This document shows positions 1-50,836 of a DNA stretch of 64,000 nucleotides, piece by piece. A program made the translations under genes and the position numbers. Under the pieces are notes generated by a model, which made no database searches, was not told the DNA's origin, and worked only from the letters and a program-made list of their open reading frames with translations. Source of the DNA: Candidatus Methanoperedens sp. GTDB lineage: Archaea > Halobacteriota > Methanosarcinia > Methanosarcinales > Methanoperedenaceae. The DNA lies in the NCBI GenBank assembly GCA_027460525.1, contig JAPZAS010000014.1, forward strand, positions 1-64,000. Reading direction: 5' to 3'. Numbering within the stretch: position 1 is the first letter of the stretch; each line of letters opens with the position of its first letter.

Positions 1-932
1 TTGTGAAGGATTTCCTGCAGCCGGGCCTGCGTTATGAACCTCCGTACGGGCCACTGGACCTGATCTCTCTGGGCATGGCACTGATCTTCGGCACTGCGGG
101 GCTTCCCCATATTCTCGTCCGCTTCTACACCGTGCCTGACGCCAAGACCGCTCGCCACAGCGTGGTGTGGGCGATGGTGCTGATCGGCAGCTTCTACATC
201 ATGACTACATTCCTTGGATTCGGAGCGGCTACAATCGTCGGCCCGGACTTCATCAAGGTCCATGGCGGCACGAACATGAGCGCGCCCCTGCTGGCACAGG
301 CGCTGGCAGGAAATGTTTTCTTCGCCTTCATCTCGTCGATTGCGTTCGCCACGATCCTCGCCGTGGTTGCGGGATTGACCATCAGCGCGACCACTTCGTT
401 CTCGCACTACTTTTGGACGAACGTCATCCATAACGGAGTGGAGCGGAAGCCCGGCGAGGAAGTGATGGTGGCGCGGATTTCGGCATTCGTAGTGGGCGCG
501 GTAGCGATCGGGATTGCGATCGTGCTCGGTCCAACGGCGAACGTCGCATTCCTGGTGGCGCTGGCATTTGCGGTCGCGGCGTCGGCGAATCTGCCGGTGA
601 TTGTGCTGTCGATCTTCTGGCGGCGCTTCAACACGGCGGGAGCCGTTACGGGCCTGGCGGTGGGCCTGCTCGCGTCGATCGGGCTGATTCTGGTAAGCCC
701 GAGTTTGATGGCCGTCGATCCCCCGACAGTGGTTGGAACGGCCCGTCACCTGATCCAGGCAAAGGCCTGGTTCCCGCTGGAGAATCCCGGCATCCTGAGT
801 ATTCCGTTGGGATTCATTGGCGCCATCATCGGGACGCTGGTCAGTTCGGAACCGTCTTCGCAAGAAAAATTCAACGAACTGCTGGTGCGCTCCAATACCG
901 GTCTGGGCGCGGAGAAAGCGACGGCCCACTAG
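1..932 (+). CDS. actP: Cation/acetate symporter, ActP-like (3' part, 5' end outside the window)
   Basis: Sodium:solute symporter family protein that would import acetate or a similar short carboxylate together with a cation across the inner membrane. About 310 residues are visible and the frame is open to the left edge, so the N-terminal half of the usual ~550-residue protein is missing; the in-frame GTG at position 3 is not a credible start. The visible part has several long hydrophobic segments, a segment reading FGTAGLPHILVRFYTV, which is typical of ActP around the middle of the protein, and a polar C-terminal tail. GC-rich and bacterial in codon use, like the rest of the first kilobase and unlike the archaeal DNA after 10.2 kb. 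Substrate is inferred from family only. Confidence 0.85.
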   Translation, partial: VKDFLQPGLRYEPPYGPLDLISLGMALIFGTAGLPHILVRFYTVPDAKTARHSVVWAMVLIGSFYIMTTFLGFGAATIVGPDFIKVHGGTNMSAPLLAQALAGNVFFAFISSIAFATILAVVAGLTISATTSFSHYFWTNVIHNGVERKPGEEVMVARISAFVVGAVAIGIAIVLGPTANVAFLVALAFAVAASANLPVIVLSIFWRRFNTAGAVTGLAVGLLASIGLILVSPSLMAVDPPTVVGTARHLIQAKAWFPLENPGILSIPLGFIGAIIGTLVSSEPSSQEKFNELLVRSNTGLGAEKATAH

Positions 933-10691: not shown

Positions 10692-13604
<2,913 letters not shown>

Positions 13605-13695
13605 CTAGATTTTGCTTCACTGCATTCGGGCGATATTCAGGTTGCGCTTATATATGGAATTTTGTTCCATCCAAGAAGGATGGATTTTACCGTCA

Positions 13696-13832
13696 TAAGC
13701 GAGTATAGCGGCCAAAGCGGCGGGGAAACACCTGTACCCATTCCGAACACAGCAGTTAAGCCCGCCCACGTTTTGCATTGTACTCAGATGTGCGAACTCT
13801 CGGGAACTGCAGAAAGCTGCTATGCTCACTTA
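13696..13832 (+). rRNA. rrf: 5S ribosomal RNA
   Basis: Terminal helix TAAGCGAGTATAGC pairs with GCTATGCTCACTTA; the core GCGGCGGGGAAACACC, CCCATTCCGAACAC and AGTTAAGCCCGCC is canonical for 5S. It follows the 23S by about 90 bases, completing a 16S-Ala-23S-5S operon. The last ~95 bases are present again 697 bases downstream, after the RelE/ParE module. Confidence 0.92.
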
Positions 13833-13837
13833 TTACT
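13743..13837 (+). repeat. Direct repeat, left copy (3' part of the 5S gene)
   Basis: From CCGAACACAGCAGTTAAG to the bases just past the 5S 3' end. The right copy is 14439-14534. The two copies differ only by CA versus TTA in the middle, and both end in CTTATTACT. They bracket the RelE/ParE-type toxin-antitoxin module. Confidence 0.95.
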
Positions 13838-13935
13838 TTTTATTTCATTTCTTCCATGTTTTTTATATCAGGCAAACTTCATATACCTGCAAACATAAAT
13901 TTACTTTAAAAATTCTGAATATCGAGGTATCAATA

Positions 13936-14121
13936 ATGACCCAGCTAAAAGAAGCAACCATAGAAACTATAAAACGATTGCCTGATGAGAGTTCATTAGA
14001 AGATATCATGTACGAGATAAACTTTGTCGCGCAGGTTCTCGAAGGACTTAAGGATGCCGAGAAAGGAAAGCTGCTGACCACAGAGGAGCTTCTTGACAGA
14101 ATCGAGCAATGGGCAAAGTAA
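13936..14121 (+). CDS. Antitoxin of a RelE/ParE-type module
   Basis: A 61-residue, highly acidic, mostly helical protein (RLPDESSLEDIMYEINFVAQVLEGLKDAEKG...) of the small antitoxin type that binds a ParE/RelE toxin and probably represses its own operon. A frame open further upstream is not used: ATG 13936 has a GAGGTAT ribosome site 5 bases before it, and a TATA-like TTTTTTATATC sits at about 13859. Its last 13 bases overlap the toxin start, typical of these pairs. Confidence 0.85.
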   Translation: MTQLKEATIETIKRLPDESSLEDIMYEINFVAQVLEGLKDAEKGKLLTTEELLDRIEQWAK

Positions 14122-14426
14122 AATGGACAAAAAAGGCAAGCAGCAATCTGCAGGCGATTCATGATTATATTGCTAAAGACTCAAAAACATATGCCGCACG
14201 TTTCATAAAATCTCTTATCAGAGCAACCACAAAGCTTGAGCAAATGCCTCTCTGCGGGCGCATGGTTCCAGAGCTTGAAGGTTATGGATTTAGAGAGGTC
14301 GTTTACCAGAATTACAGAATCGTTTATCGGCTTGTAGAAGGTAGCGAGGATGTTGAAATACTTGCTGTGGTGCATAGTGCCCGTGAGATAAATAAAGCTG
14401 TTCGCAAAGAGTGGGAGCTTAATTGA
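14109..14426 (+). CDS. RelE/ParE family toxin
   Basis: A 105-residue RelE/ParE-superfamily toxin: KVKWTKKASSNLQAIHDYIAKDS at the N-terminus, TKLEQMPLCGRMVPEL in the middle and the conserved strands REVVYQNYRIVYRLVE and VEILAVVHSARE at the end. Such toxins cleave ribosome-bound mRNA (RelE) or poison gyrase (ParE); this sequence reads more like ParE/plasmid-stabilisation members. The stop lies 12 bases before the second 5S fragment. Confidence 0.9.
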   Translation: MGKVKWTKKASSNLQAIHDYIAKDSKTYAARFIKSLIRATTKLEQMPLCGRMVPELEGYGFREVVYQNYRIVYRLVEGSEDVEILAVVHSAREINKAVRKEWELN

Positions 14427-14438
14427 GATGGATTTATC

Positions 14439-14534
14439 CCGAACACAGCAGTTAAGCCCGCCCACGTTTTGCATTGTACTTTAGATGTGCGAACTCTCGG
14501 GAACTGCAGAAAGCTGCTATGCTCACTTATTACT
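14439..14534 (+). pseudogene. Duplicated 3' fragment of 5S rRNA
   Basis: A copy of the last ~95 bases of the 5S gene at 13696-13832, nearly identical, without the 5' half needed for a functional 5S. It starts 12 bases after the toxin stop codon. Same orientation as the intact gene. Confidence 0.95.
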
Positions 14535-14558
14535 ACTTATTTTCCTTTATTTTGGAAT

Positions 14559-15311
14559 TTACCTCAAAATCAAATATTTTATAAACTCAGTAATCAAATC
14601 TCCATAAAAAACTGCCACGAAAAACCCCAAAGTTATTGGAATCATAAAAGGCAATCCCGGGGTCACCCAAACCTCCTCTTTAATCAAACCTTTTTCGGAT
14701 AGAGCTTTAAGCTCTGAAATAAGCTTCTCATCAATTTCCACGCCTCCTCGTTTGAAATGGAACTTAACTTCGCCGTTTAATACTTCAAAATTTTGAATCA
14801 ACTTGATATGTTTATTGGCAAGTTCTGAAATTTTAGCTCTGTAGCCTATGAAAATATAAAGCGGATTTTCGATATGCAATCCCATTTTCATTATATTATA
14901 CAAAGCTAACCCTATGGGAACAATGACTGTCAAAAGCACGGCATTGCCGAATATGCCGAAGGCGAAAAGATCTATCAAAGGCTTATTCAGAGGAAAGGCA
15001 TACCCATAAGCTTGCAATTTCGGATAGATCGGGAGGATTATGGATAATACGATAAGTGATTTTGCATCAGCCCCCCCGAATACCCCGAGCTGAAAAAGGA
15101 TATACACGAATACAAAGATGAATCCTGCTGAAATGAATAAGCGAGGAAGATATGCCGCACCGTATATTGAAATATCATACAAGATAAAAAAAATAGCGCC
15201 TGTGAGCATAACCAGCCACACGTTATTTGATACCCGGCGCGTTTTAATATCCGAATAACACGAATAAATCAAAAACGGTATACAGAATAATATCTTCAGG
15301 ATGTCCAGCAT
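14559..15311 (-). CDS. Archaeal type IV prepilin/prearchaellin peptidase (A24 family)
   Basis: Membrane aspartic protease that cleaves class III signal peptides of pilins and archaellins. In its 250 residues the two catalytic Asp are visible: SDIKTRRVSN (about residues 20-29) after the first membrane helix, and FGGADAKSL (the GxGD-type motif) near residue 100. Several more membrane segments follow, then a soluble insert of about 60 residues rich in Lys/Glu and a last membrane helix. No pilin genes are next to it. It lies between the 5S fragment and tRNA-Thr. Confidence 0.87.
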   Translation of the reverse strand: MLDILKILFCIPFLIYSCYSDIKTRRVSNNVWLVMLTGAIFFILYDISIYGAAYLPRLFISAGFIFVFVYILFQLGVFGGADAKSLIVLSIILPIYPKLQAYGYAFPLNKPLIDLFAFGIFGNAVLLTVIVPIGLALYNIMKMGLHIENPLYIFIGYRAKISELANKHIKLIQNFEVLNGEVKFHFKRGGVEIDEKLISELKALSEKGLIKEEVWVTPGLPFMIPITLGFFVAVFYGDLITEFIKYLILR

Positions 15312-15386
15312 ATTCTTTTAATTGTTCTGTATCCTTAAAAAATAATACGATAGCTATTTAGTCAAAAATACCAGTATACGTTCTGC

Positions 15387-15460
15387 GCCGTCGTGGCTTA
15401 GCTCGGCAAAGCGGCTGATTCGTAATCAGCAGATCGAGGGTTCAAATCCCTCCGGCGGCT
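15387..15460 (+). tRNA. tRNA-Thr (CGT)
   Basis: Acceptor GCCGTCG pairs with CGGCGGC, anticodon stem GCTGA/TCAGC around TTCGTAA, T arm GAGGG-TTCAAAT-CCCTC, discriminator T. No encoded CCA and no intron. The AT-rich ACCAGTATACG just upstream may hold the promoter. Confidence 0.94.
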
Positions 15461-15554
15461 TATTGTTTTTAATGTAAATCCGATTACCTTCTGGATTCGC
15501 CAATATTCAATTTTCTCATTGAATTTAGCTTCTCCCGAAGGAGAGTTCCCTTTT

Positions 15555-15702
15555 AGTGTCTCCTCAATCTTACCCGCATCCGTTCCCTACCCACGAGCTT
15601 TGACATCTAGCGCACGATAGCGCCAGAATTGGATACCCATTTTCTTAGCGTGCTCACTTGCTGCAACCACGAGTTTTACGCCGCTGAAATCGCTATTGTA
15701 GC
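15555..15702 (-). pseudogene. Decayed copy of the 3' end of alaS
   Basis: On the minus strand it matches the last ~190 bases of alaS (17159-17345) with a short deletion: CCCACGAGCTTTGACATCT, GCGCACGAT and TGCTGCAACCACGAG are shared on the + strand. The frame is broken: a GVKLVVAASEHAKKMG stretch is readable but then shifts frame and stops, and a GAG codon in the REMSK region has become TAG. The stop of the neighbouring vapC lies inside this remnant. It is the far boundary of a VapBC-containing insert behind alaS. Confidence 0.8.
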
Positions 15703-16139
15703 TCTAACCACCTAACTATCTCCTCGACAGTCCATCTTTTAATTCCTGAATCATCAAAATGCCTATCGTTGCTGAAAATACCATCGTTTTCAAGAGACAT
15801 GGCAAGCGCCACAAATTCCGAGTCCTTAACATCGATCTTTTCCATTACGGTCTTTGCTTTTTCCAGATTCTCTGAAAAGGCTTCTTTTTTTACGATTTCT
15901 ACTTTGCTGAGAATATAGAAAATCGTGAAAAATACTTCTTTCCGGTTCAAACCTGTTTTTTTGCAAAGAAGTTCTTTGTGTTTGAGCAATTCAGCCAAAA
16001 CCAATTCAGGCAGGTAAAAAGTGATCTTATCTGTGAGCAGGATATCTCTTATAGTGGATTTTTTGTTAACCAGAGCCGAGATGATGATATTGGTATCAAG
16101 AACTAACCTTAGTTTTGTAGTACTTTTCAAATAGACCAC
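15693..16139 (-). CDS. PIN-domain ribonuclease (VapC-like toxin)
   Basis: A 148-residue PIN nuclease. The acidic, metal-binding residues are visible in LVLDTNIIISAL (N-terminus), VLAELLKH, KDSEFVALAM and FSNDRHFDD. These proteins cut specific RNAs, often tRNA or rRNA. The upstream gene overlaps it by 44 bases and is a plausible antitoxin. The C-terminal end runs about 10 bases into the alaS remnant, suggesting the present stop was created when the module joined that sequence. Confidence 0.86.
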   Translation of the reverse strand: MVYLKSTTKLRLVLDTNIIISALVNKKSTIRDILLTDKITFYLPELVLAELLKHKELLCKKTGLNRKEVFFTIFYILSKVEIVKKEAFSENLEKAKTVMEKIDVKDSEFVALAMSLENDGIFSNDRHFDDSGIKRWTVEEIVRWLELQ

Positions 16140-16332
16140 GCTTGATGATATTATCGATTTCTTCTACATCCTTTTCTTTTAGTTTGCTTCTCACCAATAT
16201 AGATTCCACTATCTCTCGCTCATTCAAGAAGAATAAAATATCTTTGACTAATTTTTCATTCCAGTTAATGAAGCGCGCTCTCTTCATTTCTTTTGCGATG
16301 TCATTCGGAATGTCGATGACTAATTCTGTCAT
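16096..16332 (-). CDS. Antitoxin-like partner of the PIN toxin
   Basis: A 78-residue protein starting MTELVIDIPNDIAKEMKRA, a ribbon-helix-helix-like beginning seen in many archaeal VapB-type antitoxins, followed by charged helices. It overlaps the PIN gene and shares its strand. A TATA-like CTATATAAAG on this strand (16363-16372) lies about 30 bases before ATG, fitting a nearly leaderless transcript. Confidence 0.8.
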   Translation of the reverse strand: MTELVIDIPNDIAKEMKRARFINWNEKLVKDILFFLNEREIVESILVRSKLKEKDVEEIDNIIKRGLFEKYYKTKVSS

Positions 16333-16564
16333 ATCTTGTCAGTAATCTAATTGGATTCGGGACTTTATATAGATTTATATGGGCTGGATGTGTTTATTAT
16401 TTTATATCTAACTGCAATTAGAGCAGATGAACTCGAATTTCAGGCGAACTTAGTGGCTTTCTACAGTGTAGTCGAGGAAGGTTGGGAGAAAAATAGTAAT
16501 TACAAATCTCAAAATTAAACGCCATACATAAGTTTTTATTCTTTAAAGGCTTTTTAAAATTATA

Positions 16565-17071
16565 ATGACTGAGGAAGATAAAATTCAGCAGACATCAGAA
16601 GAGTTTAAATTACCTCGAGAAATTAGCAATATTGCCACTTTTTTAACGGCAATAGTAAATATTATTAGTGCACTATCTGTAGCATCCGGCAAAATAACAT
16701 TAGAAATTGGATTGTTGATAGTTATTCCTGTTCTAGTAACATATTTAGTTTGGATGTTTTATAAAATCAAAAGAAGTTCGATTATTGATTGGGGAAAATT
16801 TTATAAAATGCTAGTCCTAGAAAAAGCAAAACTTGAGTATACACGCTCTTTTGTCAAAGGACCTGCATATGATAAATTATTAACTGATGAGGTATATAAT
16901 AATTATATAGCTTTTTTATATTTGGCAGCACTATATGAAGGAAAAGAAAAATTTGCACAAGAGCTTTGGGATAAGGCGAGGATATTAGACACATTTGATG
17001 CGATTGAGGACGAACAAAAAAATAAAGAAAAGAAGATGATACAGGCGCATTATGCGAAGGTGAATCAATAG
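16565..17071 (+). CDS. Hypothetical membrane protein
   Basis: A 168-residue protein with two adjacent membrane segments (about residues 25-42 and 46-68), an acidic N-terminal tail and a helical soluble C-terminal half rich in Lys, Glu and Tyr. Not recognised. It is very AT-rich, unlike alaS next to it, and lies inside the segment bounded by the alaS 3' end and its decayed copy, so it may have arrived with VapBC. It faces the opposite way to its neighbours. Confidence 0.65.
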   Translation: MTEEDKIQQTSEEFKLPREISNIATFLTAIVNIISALSVASGKITLEIGLLIVIPVLVTYLVWMFYKIKRSSIIDWGKFYKMLVLEKAKLEYTRSFVKGPAYDKLLTDEVYNNYIAFLYLAALYEGKEKFAQELWDKARILDTFDAIEDEQKNKEKKMIQAHYAKVNQ

Positions 17072-17112
17072 ACATCAAAAACCTAATTATTGAATTGTTG
17101 AACTAATAGCAT

Positions 17113-19860
17113 CTATCCCATCGCTCTCCTCACCATCTCCACCCCTCTCGCCAGCGCCTCCTCAATCTTCGTAACATCAGTCCCCCCGCCCTGCGCTATC
17201 CCCGGCTTCCCTCCCCCGCCGCCTCCCACGAGCTTTGACATCTCGCGCACGATTGCGCCTGCATTCACTCCGAGCTTCTGCGCCCGCTCACCTGCTGCAA
17301 CCACGAGCTTCACGCCATCAAGGTCGCTTGCAAGAATAGCAACAACATCGTCGTTCTTGCTGAACTCCGTAGCTGCTTTTATAAGCTCCTCCACGTCTGC
17401 ATGCGGAATCTTTCGCGAAATCACTTTCAAGCCGTTTATGCTAACTGCGTCGCTCATCATCGCCTTTACTCTCGCCTCCGCCAGCTCTGCTTTCAGCCGC
17501 TCGTTCTCTTTCTTCAGATCCTTCCATTCATCGAAAAACCGGTTAACGGTATCAGGAAGCTGCTCAGGAGATACCCGCAGCGCCTCCGAGGATTTATTCA
17601 GCAATTCATCCCTTTCCTGCCACCGCTTTATCGCAGCCTCGCCTGCCGAGAACTCTATGCGCTCCACACCATCCTGAATCCTCTCGGTCTTGATTAGCTT
17701 GATAGGTCCGATTAATCCGGTGTTTGAAACATGTGTCCCACCGCAGGCTTCCACGTCATTACCCACCCGCAGGATGCGTATCTCCTTTCCAGGAGGCACG
17801 CCGCCCTGGTACAGCGTGAAACCATATCTTCGCTCAGCCTCAATCCGATCCATCCACTCAATGAACACAGGCAGGTTTTGCATCACTACTTTATTTGCGA
17901 GCAATTCAATTTCTCTTTTCTCCTCATCGTTAATCCGCTTGTAATGCGTGAGGTCAAGCCTTGCCCTGTCTGTGGACTTCTGAGCCCCGGTCTGCCAGAT
18001 ATGGTTTCCAAGAACAGATTTGGCAGCCTCGTTCACGATATGCGTGGCTGTATGATGGCGGGCGTGTGCAAGCCGCCTTTCCCAGTCTATTTTGCCTTTT
18101 ACGGTATCTCCCTTCTTAAAACCGAAATCGGAATCGGTTTCATGGATTATAACACCGTTGATATTCTGGGCATCAGTAACATTCGCAATATAATCATTCA
18201 CCGACAAAGTGCCGTGGTCGGCAGGCTGTCCTCCCCCTTCGGGATAAAACAGCGTCTGGTCAAGGATTATCCTGTTCTCAATAACAGAAAGTACCTGAGC
18301 CTCAAACTCAAAGCGCTCGGGATATTCGTAATAAAGCTTCCGCGTGAGTGGAAGTTCAAGCGGCAGCGCTAGGGTTTCCTCCTCTTCCGCCTTGCTGTGT
18401 TTTTTTGCTACAAGCGAGTAGAAGGTATCATGCAGTTCGGTGTCAACGCCAATTTCTTTTGCTACTTCGCGTGCAATTTCCGGAGGGATACCGTGTGTAT
18501 CGTACAGCTGTATCAGCTCAGCAAGCGGTATTTTCTGCTTTTTTTCCTTGAAATGCGCTGCAGTCTTCCTGACGAGTTTTGTCCCGCGCTCTATGGTATC
18601 TGCATATTTTTCTTCTTCAAGCGCAACGATCTCATGAATAGTACCAAGCCGTTCCTTAAACTCTGGGTATTCAGGGAAGTTCCTTATCTGCATCTCTATG
18701 ATTTCAATAAGTGGCTCCTTTATCTCCAGTTCCCTCATCAGGCGAAGCGTCCTTCGCAGCACGAGCCTTGCGAGATAACCTGCCTTTACGTTAGAAGGGA
18801 TGATGCCGTCCCCAAACATGAACGCCAGGCATCTTGAATGGTCGGTGATAGCATAGATTGCCTCCACGGGCACCATAAGCTTCTGGAGTTTCTCAACAGT
18901 TGTGCCTATGCTGTCTGCAACCTTCTTTCTTAACTGCAGGAGATTTGCCTGCCCGCTGATATCCATCACGCCTGCGAACCTTGCATTCTGTGAGAAAATA
19001 TTGGCGTATTCCTGATTCTCTATCGTGTGTTCGATGCCTGCCAAGTCCATCAGTTCATTTACTATCTTCGGGAACACGGCATCGTATATCGTTGGCGAGC
19101 CTCTGGATGCCCAGACAAACCTTTCTAAACCATAGCCTGTGTCCACGATATAATTATCCATCTTCTCGTAGGTTTCCCCTTTGATTTCTATAGAGCCGCC
19201 TTTTGTCTGCTGCAAGTCCATGAAGACAAGCGTGGCAAGTTCAAGACCGCCAACGAGCACTTCCACGCTGGGACCTGCGTTTCCCCCTCCTGCCCATGGT
19301 GATTCCTTATACGTCACCGCATTCAGGTCGCATCCGAGTTCTGATAACAGGGTATCGCATAATTCCACAGTTCTATCCTTCCAGTAAATCTCTTTATCAC
19401 GGGAATTGAAAGCATGGTGCGCCATCATCTCAAAGGTAGTAAGATGCCTGCCGCTTCTTCCGACCGCATCGAGGTCATCGAGGCGAATGCACGGCTGCGA
19501 AATAGTGAGGGGATTCGCAGGCGGCGGGACAATCCCAGACGTTACAAAAGGCTGGAAATCAGCAATGGATGCGATGGTAAGGTAGATATCATCGCGCCAG
19601 CGTGCAATCACTGGATAACGCTTCACCCGTGTGTGCCCATGCCTTTCGAAAAATGATAAGTATGCCTCGCGCATTGAAGAAATGTCGAACTCTTTTTTGA
19701 ACACAGGGCTGCCGATGAATGAATAATACACGCAGGGCGCATCCCCGCAAAACTCGGTTTCGGGATTACGTGTCCAGAAGTTCTCGCCACATTTTGGACA
19801 CTGCTTTCGCACAAATCCATTCTCTTTAAAATAATCCAGCTGGTACTCGTCCTTTAACAT
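17113..19860 (-). CDS. alaS: Alanyl-tRNA synthetase, archaeal type
   Basis: Charges tRNA-Ala. At 915 residues it has the archaeal-specific N-terminal zinc element (CPKCGENFWTRNP...FCGDAPC from about residue 20), the class II core with HHAFNS and the GLERF motif, the editing domain with RHHTATH (about 600) and CGGTH (about 706-710), and the C-terminal DHHA1 domain ending in SKLVGGGGGGKPGIAQGGG. ATG 19860 is the natural start. Its 3' end is repeated, in decayed form, at 15555-15702. Confidence 0.97.
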   Translation of the reverse strand: MLKDEYQLDYFKENGFVRKQCPKCGENFWTRNPETEFCGDAPCVYYSFIGSPVFKKEFDISSMREAYLSFFERHGHTRVKRYPVIARWRDDIYLTIASIADFQPFVTSGIVPPPANPLTISQPCIRLDDLDAVGRSGRHLTTFEMMAHHAFNSRDKEIYWKDRTVELCDTLLSELGCDLNAVTYKESPWAGGGNAGPSVEVLVGGLELATLVFMDLQQTKGGSIEIKGETYEKMDNYIVDTGYGLERFVWASRGSPTIYDAVFPKIVNELMDLAGIEHTIENQEYANIFSQNARFAGVMDISGQANLLQLRKKVADSIGTTVEKLQKLMVPVEAIYAITDHSRCLAFMFGDGIIPSNVKAGYLARLVLRRTLRLMRELEIKEPLIEIIEMQIRNFPEYPEFKERLGTIHEIVALEEEKYADTIERGTKLVRKTAAHFKEKKQKIPLAELIQLYDTHGIPPEIAREVAKEIGVDTELHDTFYSLVAKKHSKAEEEETLALPLELPLTRKLYYEYPERFEFEAQVLSVIENRIILDQTLFYPEGGGQPADHGTLSVNDYIANVTDAQNINGVIIHETDSDFGFKKGDTVKGKIDWERRLAHARHHTATHIVNEAAKSVLGNHIWQTGAQKSTDRARLDLTHYKRINDEEKREIELLANKVVMQNLPVFIEWMDRIEAERRYGFTLYQGGVPPGKEIRILRVGNDVEACGGTHVSNTGLIGPIKLIKTERIQDGVERIEFSAGEAAIKRWQERDELLNKSSEALRVSPEQLPDTVNRFFDEWKDLKKENERLKAELAEARVKAMMSDAVSINGLKVISRKIPHADVEELIKAATEFSKNDDVVAILASDLDGVKLVVAAGERAQKLGVNAGAIVREMSKLVGGGGGGKPGIAQGGGTDVTKIEEALARGVEMVRRAMG

Positions 19861-29043: not shown

Positions 29044-29916
29044 ATGAACATAGGAAATATATTGAAGGCTTTTGATATTAATTTCGATTATGAAAATGTA
29101 AAGATAATAAGACATGTAATAAAAGAAGATAGTGAGTTGGAATTAATTAGAAATGGAATGTTTGATGTATATCAATCAATTCAAAGAAATCCTGTTTTTA
29201 ATGGATGTGATGCTATTATTTCTTTTCTTGTCGATGAGTATTCGAAAAAGACAATATTCAAAGGTATATATGAAGTAAAAGGCAAAAAGAAGTATGAACT
29301 TACTGATGTAGTGAAGGAATGCAGTGATGTTTGGAAACCAGATGGAAAAAGGATATTCTACACACTTGAAAAAACAAAATATCTTGAAAGCCTTACCGAT
29401 AGGTTAGTAATTGATTGGGGAGGAGGTGAAAGAAAGTGGCATCAATGGTATATAAAGAAAAAAGAGAAAGGAGAGAAAGGAGAGAAAAAAATTGTTGAGA
29501 TTCTTCCAAAAGGATTTTTTACGAGATTTCCTGGATTCTTAGATTTTTCCCTTAAATGGCATGATCTAGAGCAAATAATAAAAAACGAAGAGGCTCACCA
29601 AGATTGGTATCATGCTTTATCTAAAGTAAAGGGTGTATATTTAATAACCGATGAAACAGATGGAAAACAATATATTGGTTCGGCTTATAATGAAAAGGGT
29701 ATATGGGGACGTTGGAAAAATTATATAGAAACAAAAGATGGAGGAAACAAGAAATTAATTGAAATATTAAAAGCTAACCCAGAAAAGTATAATTCTTTTA
29801 GATTTTCTATCCTAGAAATACTTCTATATAGTTCTACAAAAGATGATGTTATACATCGGGAAAAGAGAGCAAAAGAAAAATTAGGAACAAGATCATTTGG
29901 TCTAAATTTAAATTGA
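29044..29916 (+). CDS. GIY-YIG nuclease-domain protein
   Basis: A 290-residue protein. The C-terminal ~100 residues form a GIY-YIG domain: GVYLITDETDGKQYIGSAY (about 199-217), then the Arg/Trp helix IWGRWKNY and a late Glu-containing strand FSILEILLY. The N-terminal ~190 residues are an unrecognised, Lys/Glu-rich domain that could determine targeting. GIY-YIG enzymes cut DNA in repair, homing or restriction; nothing next door identifies which. Strongly AT-rich compared with polC and ahcY, suggesting acquisition. AAGGAG ribosome site just before ATG. Confidence 0.8.
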   Translation: MNIGNILKAFDINFDYENVKIIRHVIKEDSELELIRNGMFDVYQSIQRNPVFNGCDAIISFLVDEYSKKTIFKGIYEVKGKKKYELTDVVKECSDVWKPDGKRIFYTLEKTKYLESLTDRLVIDWGGGERKWHQWYIKKKEKGEKGEKKIVEILPKGFFTRFPGFLDFSLKWHDLEQIIKNEEAHQDWYHALSKVKGVYLITDETDGKQYIGSAYNEKGIWGRWKNYIETKDGGNKKLIEILKANPEKYNSFRFSILEILLYSSTKDDVIHREKRAKEKLGTRSFGLNLN

Positions 29917-30136: not shown

Positions 30137-30616
30137 ATGTTTAATGTTTTCAATATAGAGAGAAGCGAATCTGAAATAAGAGATTTGAAGAGATTCTGGA
30201 ATGAACTTAGTTATAAGGATAGGGATAATTCAATAGGTCATGCGTCTATATTTATAGGTGATTATCCCTCCAGCCTTCCATTATCACTTATTCCCAAACT
30301 TGGAGATATTCCAGGAGATATAAAAACAAGAAGAGATAAGGTTATGGAGGAGATTGAGAAATTGAAAATTTTGAATTCAAAATCAAAATGGAAGTATATG
30401 CTGAAACTTGTGCCTGAACCCTATAAACCCAATCTTCTTGGATGTATATTTAAATATTTATCATTATCTAAAAACGATGAAACTAAATTAATTGATTATT
30501 TAGGTATAACGGATTTTGATGAATATAATGACATATACGATTTTTGTTCAAATCTTTTTTCCCAACGCACAAGTGCAATGTCTTCCGCATTTAGGAACTA
30601 CTTAGGAAAGCAATAG
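30137..30616 (+). CDS. Hypothetical protein
   Basis: A 159-residue soluble protein, not recognised: a charged helical N-terminus (RSESEIRDLKRFWNEL), a GHASIFIGDYPSSLP segment, a Lys/Glu helix and an aromatic-rich acidic stretch (DYLGITDFDEYNDIYDF). AT-rich like the GIY-YIG gene before it. The TATA-like ATATATAAG at about 30117-30125 and GAGAATATG before the start support expression. Confidence 0.55.
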   Translation: MFNVFNIERSESEIRDLKRFWNELSYKDRDNSIGHASIFIGDYPSSLPLSLIPKLGDIPGDIKTRRDKVMEEIEKLKILNSKSKWKYMLKLVPEPYKPNLLGCIFKYLSLSKNDETKLIDYLGITDFDEYNDIYDFCSNLFSQRTSAMSSAFRNYLGKQ

Positions 30617-49088: not shown

Positions 49089-49152
49089 AAATTTAAGCGG
49101 ATGCAGAAGGCATGGAACGAGACAAGCTCTTTCTCAGGTGAAAGTTAAATCA

Positions 49153-50613
49153 TTATGTATCTGATTTCTTAATTGTTGTAAAATAGTAATGGAGACCTTC
49201 AGCCAGTGCAACTGCTCCAGCGGGAGAAAAATTGTTAATATTGAGATTTTTATTTAAAAATTCTGCAAAATCGTCCGATTCTATATCAAATTCTAGGACA
49301 TGTCCTTCCCAGTTTCCTTCGATGTTTTCTTTTCCTTCAATGATCTCTTTACTCTTCCTATAGACCTCAATATCCTTTATGAGCAATAACACGGTTAATT
49401 CTGGTTTTAAAGTTACCAAATCAATTAAAAAACCTGTAGGAATAATTTCATATATATTATCCTTTTTAGATGGAATATCCCTATTTTTTATTTCCTCATC
49501 GGTTAGTAGGTATTTACCTGGAGTAAAATTTTTCCGTTTTTCTAATCTGAATATATTAAAAGGGTCTGCACTCCTATTTTTCCAATCAGCTTCTTCAAGG
49601 TCATAAACTTCTTCTAAGAATTCTCTTAAAACAGTATATTGAAAGTGGCATTGTTCCTCAATAATCTTTTCATGAAAATCACTCAAAGGCTGAAATGCTC
49701 CTGCTGGAGCTACACTATAAAAACCCGGCTGTTCAACCTGTAATTCTCCTCGTTTTTGAATGAAAGTGCAGTATTTATTTTCATCCTTTTTCATGAGCAC
49801 AAAAACATTAATGCCAAGCTTAACAGGTCGTCCTTTAAACTCGAAAATTTGCTCTTTGAGCAGAGACTCCCGAACCCTAAATTTTAATAACAGAGGCTTT
49901 AATAGCCATATTAAAAATTTTTCAGATCTTTTAATATAAAGATGAAAATAAAGTTCCTTTGCGATAAGGTCATAGTATTTGACATAGTTGAAATAACGCC
50001 CAAGAATAAAATGAAGCTCTAATGCTTTTATTTCTGGTTTTGGATCAATTTTGCACAGGTCGAATGTCCTACCGTTCCACATTTCCTTATTACTAATAGA
50101 ACCCAAAAAATCTGGATAATTTTCTATCTGAAATAAATTTAAAAAATTTGTAGACATTTTAAGCTTATCATCCGACAGCGAACCCTCAGACAGTTTGCCG
50201 TTGTTTTCTTTTTCTAGCCCACAATTTTTAATTAGCAGATTTGGGCATTTGCTCTTTAACCACCATTCCTCGCAAATCAATGGGAATTTATAATTATGTT
50301 CCCCAAACATATCAAATTTTATTTTATTATTATACAATTTCTCAATAGATTCTGATAAATATTGTATATCTATAACGAATAGACTACTATCAAGCGTATA
50401 GTAAGAAAATATCTTGTCATGCACTTCATTATATTTAGCCACTTCAGGAGCAGGGGACCTGCATACTGTTGAAAAAATACTGCGAAGTTGTCGTTTATAT
50501 AACGATAAAACAGTAAAAGGAATACCAAAAACTACTATGATAGACGCGAACAAATTTACGCTTTCGATGAATCCAGCCCACGAGAAGCCGCTTTCCATAT
50601 AGTTTCTATCCAA
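49153..50613 (-). CDS. Membrane-anchored protein with a C-terminal Nudix-like domain
   Basis: 486 residues, AT-rich. One N-terminal membrane helix (about 18-38, VNLFASIIVVFGIPFTVL) is followed by a ~250-residue unrecognised region and then a Nudix-like domain: FYSVAPAGAFQPLSDF with a late REFLEEVYDLEE (about 325-345) resembling the Nudix box RExxEExG with Gly replaced by Tyr, so catalysis is uncertain. C-terminal GAVALAEGLHYYF is unusual. The region between dadD and enolase shows no partner gene. Could be a nucleotide-sensing membrane protein; function not known. Confidence 0.6.
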   Translation of the reverse strand: MDRNYMESGFSWAGFIESVNLFASIIVVFGIPFTVLSLYKRQLRSIFSTVCRSPAPEVAKYNEVHDKIFSYYTLDSSLFVIDIQYLSESIEKLYNNKIKFDMFGEHNYKFPLICEEWWLKSKCPNLLIKNCGLEKENNGKLSEGSLSDDKLKMSTNFLNLFQIENYPDFLGSISNKEMWNGRTFDLCKIDPKPEIKALELHFILGRYFNYVKYYDLIAKELYFHLYIKRSEKFLIWLLKPLLLKFRVRESLLKEQIFEFKGRPVKLGINVFVLMKKDENKYCTFIQKRGELQVEQPGFYSVAPAGAFQPLSDFHEKIIEEQCHFQYTVLREFLEEVYDLEEADWKNRSADPFNIFRLEKRKNFTPGKYLLTDEEIKNRDIPSKKDNIYEIIPTGFLIDLVTLKPELTVLLLIKDIEVYRKSKEIIEGKENIEGNWEGHVLEFDIESDDFAEFLNKNLNINNFSPAGAVALAEGLHYYFTTIKKSDT

Positions 50614-50836
50614 TTTGTTGCATTACTGATTTTAATTGCACTTAACCCAATAATATGCAGTGCAGTCTATATATACCTATTTTTAAGACGAATTATGCAA
50701 CCTTTAAGATGAACCTTCCAGTTTTCTGCAAAATAGTCTTTCCTGTCATCCTGTTGGGATAATTCCGCATTTTAACATGAGGAAGTAATTAAAATTAAGT
50801 ACAACCATAACCATTCAGTTCAACAGGTGATATTCA

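Follow-up and report, generated by a model that had tools for sequence, protein, structure and literature searches.

A predicted membrane-anchored, NUDT22-like Nudix protein at a variable cargo site of a Candidatus Methanoperedens genome

Positions 49153-50613 of the 64,000-nucleotide stretch of contig JAPZAS010000014.1 analysed here (the window) encode a 486-amino-acid protein of Candidatus Methanoperedens sp. for which Pfam, PADLOC and NCBIfam returned zero matches at E ≤ 10 and PHROGs a single match at E = 1. The initial annotation, made from the sequence alone, had described a membrane-anchored protein with a separate 250-residue unrecognised domain and a Nudix-like box, and had suggested nucleotide sensing or a role as a defence effector. 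From the predicted models, we propose that it is a membrane-tethered hydrolase or sensor of UDP-hexose on the cytosolic side, a prokaryotic Nudix protein resembling human NUDT22, and we put the probability of this reading at about 0.6.

The gene and its variable cargo site

The coding sequence (49153..50613, minus strand) was delimited by its open reading frame and supported by relatives and fold matches, with 486 codons open from a TTG at 50613. An in-frame ATG at codon 6 (position 50598) is an alternative, and it is uncertain which of the two is the start. A candidate archaeal TATA box, TATATATA (50668..50675, minus strand), was found by eye about 54 nt upstream of the TTG. A pseudogene was considered and dropped, the frame being intact and every invariant residue of the family being retained. 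The gene is present as a single copy in the host genome, where mcrA (methyl-coenzyme M reductase subunit A) scores above its curated cut-off, indicating a host that is a methanogen or is closely related to methanogens. As had been noticed, the gene is AT-rich, with a GC content of 32.7% versus a mean of 49.5% (SD 9.0) for the 41 window ORFs that reach 150 amino acids and do not overlap, itself included. Three of the 41 lie below it (29044-29913, 30137-30613 and 16565-17068; GC fraction 0.30-0.31), and these were possibly imported too.

By reading of their translations, the flanking genes are an SAH-deaminase-type amidohydrolase and an enolase, both core-type and both on the plus strand, in agreement with the earlier description of a single gene between core genes with no partner adjacent to it in the window. 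A defence system with its partner inside the window was dropped on the latter ground. The amidohydrolase was matched in all 31 genomes of the genus (G023 by a weak partial match only) and the enolase in 30 of them (G011 and G019 by short pieces only). The two genes are adjacent on one contig in 10 of 30 relatives of the genus, while in the remaining 20 they lie on separate contigs or far apart, or one of them is incomplete or missing. Six of these ten (L023-L028) have an empty site, with a gap of just 57-64 bp between the two genes. The other four carry different cargo: a DUF3368 and UPF0175 pair read as a VapBC-like toxin-antitoxin in L019, a PHB-depolymerase-type esterase in L020, and a membrane protein with a metallophosphoesterase in L021 and L022. 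All cargo genes at the site, including the gene at 49153-50613, run opposite in strand to both flanks. Given these alternative cargoes and empty sites, the gene is one among several cargoes at a variable site, the segment between the two core genes spanning 49089..50784 in the window (no strand assigned; edges approximate, from comparison with relatives of the genus). It matched none of the 59 other nearest-relative genomes (30 of them of the same genus; the 60th genome searched was its own) and, with the single protein and a five-row profile as queries, none of 391 further genomes sampled across the phylum (392 including its own). The gene is probably accessory and horizontally acquired.

Predicted fold and the conserved RExxEE motif

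Structure prediction with fold searching had been proposed as a check on the initial annotation. AlphaFold gave the 486-residue protein a pLDDT of 64.6 and a pTM of 0.67, a model of medium confidence in which residues 181-340 and 390-486 are predicted best, and gave a planctomycete relative (L009) values of 88.9 and 0.87, both models being built from the same 15 family rows. Foldseek ranked human NUDT22 first for both models (E 1.2e-6 and 5.8e-9, respectively), in superpositions that are loose (TM 0.52-0.62 by NUDT22's length, rmsd 6.8-9.0 Å). In VIA-align 2, the model of the archaeal protein matched NUDT22 with a Z of 15.3 (4.5 Å, 260 residues aligned, model 104-478 to chain −2..287) and the L009 model with a Z of 18.9 (3.8 Å, 261 aligned of 290), whereas the best row other than NUDT22 reached 10.2 for the former (2fkb of E. 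coli) and 12.8 for the latter (IPP isomerase of human). Rows for NUDT22 (PDB 5lor, 5lou, 5lf9, 5r50) aligned 249-261 residues, covering nearly the whole protein, while others among the matches listed aligned at most 202; the 202-residue row, 3dup, is a Rhodospirillum Nudix protein reaching also into the N-terminal part. With the predicted models as queries, the rows among the matches listed all bear names of Nudix or Nudix-fold proteins, so the Nudix-like assignment was upheld. A viral structure library gave no match at E ≤ 0.001. The models thus make a NUDT22-like fold of the 486-residue protein very probable.

Sequence comparison, by contrast, does not detect this kinship, which is therefore drawn from predicted structure only. 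Run against the PDB at E ≤ 10, the 32-row family profile did not retrieve NUDT22, phmmer against the PDB gave no match for the 486-residue protein and chance-level rows only for L009, the Pfam NUDIX model is absent among the matches of 17 family members (E ≤ 1), and identity to NUDT22 in the VIA alignments is 12-14%. A Nudix-type domain was placed by AlphaFold and the fold searches at residues 263-480 (49174..49827, minus strand), and residues 104-262 (49828..50304, minus strand), which contain W118, Y207 and E220, align with the part of NUDT22 ahead of its Nudix domain, both boundaries being approximate. Because the fold alignment spans this pre-Nudix part, the supposedly separate unrecognised domain belongs, from about residue 104, to the NUDT22 fold; most of it and the Nudix-like box are, as modelled, one NUDT22-like unit. 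The archaeal protein differs from NUDT22 in having about 100 extra N-terminal residues, which make up its membrane anchor and the linker. The NUDT22 structural paper of Carter from 2018 is said to ascribe UDP recognition to the N-terminal domain.

Conserved residues were read from a 32-row alignment (A13), which omits some further Streptomyces members (L065, L066, L069, L070), fragments or split frames (L073, L075, L076 and two of the three L064 pieces) and the N-terminal piece of L017, whose contig has a frame change. Y207, P303, R330, E331, E334, E335 and E436 are invariant in 32/32 rows, and Q308, R288 and E220 (31/32), F307 and P309 (30/32) and G305 (29/32) are nearly so. The box noticed earlier, RE-FL-EE-V-Y, is present at residues 330-337 and forms the end of an extended non-canonical box, P303-A-G305-A-F-Q-P309 ... 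R330-E-F-L-E-E335 (49609..49707, minus strand), which takes the form PxGxFQP-x(~20)-RExxEE in the family, where the Arg comes 21-25 residues after the Gly position, versus 14 in the canonical box. Compared with the canonical Gx5Ex5[UA]xREx2EExGU, REx2EE was found in 32/32 rows and the terminal Gly in 1/32, while the Gx5E half was missing, by eye, in 32/32. The Tyr at the terminal Gly position had been pointed out as well; it is no peculiarity of one protein, the site holding Gly in one row and Leu in 25 of the 32. RExxEE occurred in 283 of 20,000 shuffles of the 486-residue protein and in 2 of the 41 window ORFs (its own included), and being so common in shuffles it is weak evidence by itself; it becomes strong evidence because R330, E331, E334 and E335 are invariant. 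The PAG/FQP stretch is conserved partly by selection in L007-L018, since the pattern [VLA][AIV]PAG[EA]FQP was the query that found them, while RExxEE, Y207 and E436 lie outside that pattern. By its residues RExxEE is a motif of the metal-binding type, and E436, in E436-G437 (49303..49308, minus strand), is a candidate further metal ligand or base.

With the canonical Gx5E half missing, catalysis could be lost, and the protein could be a dead scaffold or a regulator, its Nudix fold serving for ligand binding alone; the N-terminal modules of the family, helix-turn-helix (HTH) domains and membrane anchors, are of the kind that regulators carry. However, invariance of RExxEE and E436 would be unusual were metal binding dispensable, and NUDT22 provides a precedent. 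It 'lacks a conventional NUDIX box' according to PMC5688067, as the box is non-conventional in the present family, and yet it converts UDP-glucose to UMP and glucose-1-phosphate according to PMC10101856. Given this precedent, the departure from the canonical box lowers the label of 'canonical Nudix' and not the fold assignment, and we consider a dead scaffold doubtful. Both papers describe NUDT22 as a significant outlier among human Nudix proteins, and an earlier screen of 52 substrates (PMC5688067) found no clear substrate for it. For the archaeal protein, we judge from this analogy that the chances of hydrolysis are evenly balanced.

Scattered relatives with exchangeable N-termini

The first relative, on a Ruegeria plasmid, came from a tblastn search (E 2e-3; pairwise 1e-13) and led to further relatives on plasmids of Amycolatopsis and Streptomyces. 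A first pattern scan of genome contigs gave 0 confirmed loci from 135 matches, and a scan of GTDB species genomes gave 12 from 253, in Woeseiaceae, Krumholzibacteriia, Planctomycetota, Competibacteraceae and actinomycetes. A profile of 17 rows, with the seed genome included in each count, matched 4/199 genomes of the planctomycete's phylum, 16/101 Streptomycetaceae and 1/299 Pseudomonadota. The relatives found are thus sporadic, distant (about 19-31% identity in local alignments) and bacterial. Closest to the 486-residue protein by BLAST are those of Ruegeria (L002; 25% over 310 residues) and a planctomycete (L077; 25% over 253 residues), near which it also falls in the tree, on the second longest end branch (2.41) and with its placement unsure. 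Phage records held no match to it or to the Ruegeria relative, and the only match in scans of viral contigs was the same Streptomyces plasmid: L006, a contig from a viral collection, shares both its family genes and its length (151949) with a plasmid of Streptomyces sp. NA02950 (L004) and is therefore probably a plasmid, not a virus. Pif-type proteins, as described in PMC3218068, are likewise Nudix proteins on actinobacterial mobile (integrative) elements, some with XRE genes nearby; unlike them, 17 members of the present family are without a Pfam NUDIX match, the comparison with Pif being by description and not by sequence.

The N-terminus of the archaeal protein contains a hydrophobic segment at residues 21-39 (LFASIIVVFGIPFTVLSLY; 50497..50553, minus strand; mean Kyte-Doolittle hydropathy 2.22), followed by KRQLR. 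Given one Lys or Arg before the segment and four within the 15 residues after it, the positive-inside rule predicts an Nout/Cin orientation, and the helix resembles an anchor, with the remainder of the protein in the cytosol. Residues 40-103 (50305..50496, minus strand) were modelled as a helical linker of low confidence, and in the L009 model residues 2-61 form one helix, anchor included. Similar N-termini recur in L009, L016, L010 and L011 (hydropathy 2.2-2.7 with the archaeal protein included) and, by eye, in L068, L071, L072 and the frame-broken L017, which bears out the claim of membrane anchoring.

By contrast, Pfam detected an XRE-type HTH in L003, L060, L061, L062 (below cut-off) and L063, and XRE-type models matched full-length L015 and L018 below their cut-offs in an NCBIfam scan, whereas the 486-residue protein has no HTH match in Pfam (E ≤ 10) and an anchor in its place. 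On the tree, three N-terminal labels require 8 changes, versus a possible minimum of 2 and a mean of 15.3 for shuffled labels; L012, L014 and L006_7647 (HTH) and L017, L068, L071 and L072 (anchored) were labelled by eye, and Pfam matches are absent for L012 and for the L004 copy of the L006_7647 protein. N-terminal parts in this family therefore swap between membrane anchors and DNA-binding domains. In Streptomyces L061 (5143-7998), L062 (1345-4232) and L004 (3409-6053; HTH by eye), an HTH copy is directly followed by an HTH-less copy on one strand, and L064 and L073 show a similar tandem with broken frames; the two copies could be a pair of subunits. A member from the planctomycete's phylum, L079 (5065-7104), is 680 residues long, with a long C-terminal extension and AQMEV replacing the FQP motif.

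Candidate ligands, neighbours and proposed function

The HTH-bearing relatives resemble NrtR, a sensor of ADP-ribose, and this bears on whether the ligand might be another dinucleotide (ADP-ribose, NAD-type or CoA-type), with the likeness to NUDT22 being merely general. Many Nudix structures match the C-terminal half of the model at Z 8.5-10, including NrtR with ADP-ribose, the TRPM2 chanzyme and ADP-ribose pyrophosphatases. NrtR and AraR (PDB 3gz5, 5bs6) share with the HTH-bearing relatives the combination of a Nudix fold with a DNA-binding domain. However, their Z is only about 9, the XRE-type HTH of the relatives precedes the Nudix domain while that of NrtR and AraR is C-terminal to it, and the archaeal protein has an anchor and no HTH match. 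Moreover, NUDT22 leads the next row by 5 to 6 Z units, with a longer alignment, and the few telling neighbours of the relatives favour hexoses over NAD. A hydrolase or sensor of another dinucleotide is therefore unlikely in our judgement, and a UDP-sugar, by analogy with NUDT22, has somewhat better than even prospects of being the ligand.

These neighbours came from a survey of 35 loci with short flanks, carried out as the initial annotation had proposed, using models built from the same neighbours (epimerases and HADs). A GalE-like epimerase lies near the family gene on the same strand in 4/35 loci, 31 bp from the HTH-bearing gene in L060, overlapping it in L063, at 117 bp in L018 and at 819 bp, with an ORF between, in L015. 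The top NCBIfam match of the three scanned is galE, below cut-off (E 1.2e-57 to 2.2e-63). L015 and L018 are near-copies and L060 and L063 sisters, so that the epimerase loci are perhaps one clade. A HAD-type phosphatase lies within 730 bp in another 4/35 loci (L003, L008, L012 and L014), representing three lineages at most, as L012 and L014 are near-copies; the L014 call is based on 67% identity to the HAD of L012. For L008, glucose-1-phosphatase ranks first among the named matches (E 6.8e-14, below cut-off), although Pfam returned no match at 0.01; for L012 the matches include glucose-1-phosphatase (3.4e-9) among other HAD families, and for L003 the best named matches are other HAD families. 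L007 adjoins an IMPase-like gene (E 0.0017, below the Pfam cut-off) and L074 a cytidylyltransferase-like gene. All four epimerase matches and four of five HAD matches fall within 0.82 kb of the family gene. Given the short flanks and the origin of the models, this tells no more than that the flanks do not hold additional copies at scattered positions. In 27 of the 35 loci the scan found neither neighbour, and no sugar gene lies beside the gene at 49153-50613 in the window. All-against-all comparisons (15 loci with part of the window; 35 loci) mostly returned antisense ORFs of high-GC genomes and the shared neighbourhoods of close species, with no conserved partner gene among the matches listed. 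The epimerase and HAD neighbours fit UDP-hexoses as ligand, through the metabolism of hexose-1-phosphate and UDP-hexose. Beside the family gene of two Streptomyces loci, a pentapeptide-repeat membrane protein is conserved (11231-12316 in L012, 10993-12072 in L014).

Some neighbours are of a different kind. Three non-actinobacterial relatives (Ruegeria L002, L016 and L007) have defence-like neighbours, namely an OLD/GajA/AriA-like ATPase, an Mrr-type nuclease and a PDC-S37/Hhe-like protein, in a small sample chosen after the fact, with PADLOC run on 10 chosen neighbours. In L007, a protein of 2000 residues (12275-18277) with PADLOC matches to PDC-S37 (E 0) and Hhe lies about 1.1 kb from the family gene, and a Fic-like gene lies on the other side. 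Such neighbours, together with an accessory, AT-rich and sporadic gene, the toxin-antitoxin-like pair at the cargo site of L019 and the plasmid location of some relatives, are what might be expected of a membrane-tethered immune effector that hydrolyses a nucleotide sugar or another nucleotide after sensing phage. However, PADLOC (2023 library) gave 0 families for the 486-residue protein at E ≤ 10, the window holds no partner, neighbourhood comparisons showed no conserved defence partner among the matches listed, the site elsewhere carries an esterase or a metallophosphoesterase, and a phage sensor would be required. The suggestion of a defence effector is therefore not borne out; we regard such an effector as distinctly improbable and give a putative defence role of any form equally little credence. 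The suggestion of nucleotide sensing fits when taken as sensing or hydrolysis of a nucleotide sugar (UDP-hexose).

The preferred reading, a membrane-tethered hydrolase or sensor of UDP-hexose, may work as follows. The N-terminal helix would tether the cytosolic NUDT22-like domain to the inner face of the membrane, where the domain might bind UDP-glucose or UDP-galactose with Mg2+, as NUDT22 does. The pyrophosphate would then be cleaved to give UMP and hexose-1-phosphate, or the same chemistry would serve as a sensor. Anchoring may place the protein beside glycosylation enzymes that use UDP-sugars at the membrane. In actinobacterial relatives, by contrast, the same domain on a DNA-binding module would couple the expression of sugar genes nearby, at the level of transcription, to the amount of UDP-sugar. 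A bolder extension would have the family as a modular device for UDP-hexose control, with repeated N-terminal swaps directing a NUDT22-like core to one of two places: the membrane, where it would act on UDP-sugar pools at sites of glycosylation, or DNA, where it would switch neighbouring sugar genes. In the archaeon and some bacteria the gene would be kept as accessory cargo for the protection that depleting or monitoring UDP-glucose gives against phages or other elements; this whole extension we find quite unlikely.

A prior description of a prokaryotic NUDT22-like family was not found in the open-access literature, a scope that mostly excludes subscription papers, so this absence is no proof of novelty. 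Taken together, the results suggest a so far undescribed family involved in the sensing or breakdown of nucleotide sugars, the core of which has no curated model in the libraries searched. They provide a label for proteins annotated just as 'hypothetical protein' or 'XRE family transcriptional regulator', and the relatives would represent an experimentally easy set for studying the NUDT22 fold. If the proposal is true, a prokaryotic family with the predicted fold of NUDT22 would give this human outlier an evolutionary background, together with a testable idea of how microbes might sense UDP-sugar levels.
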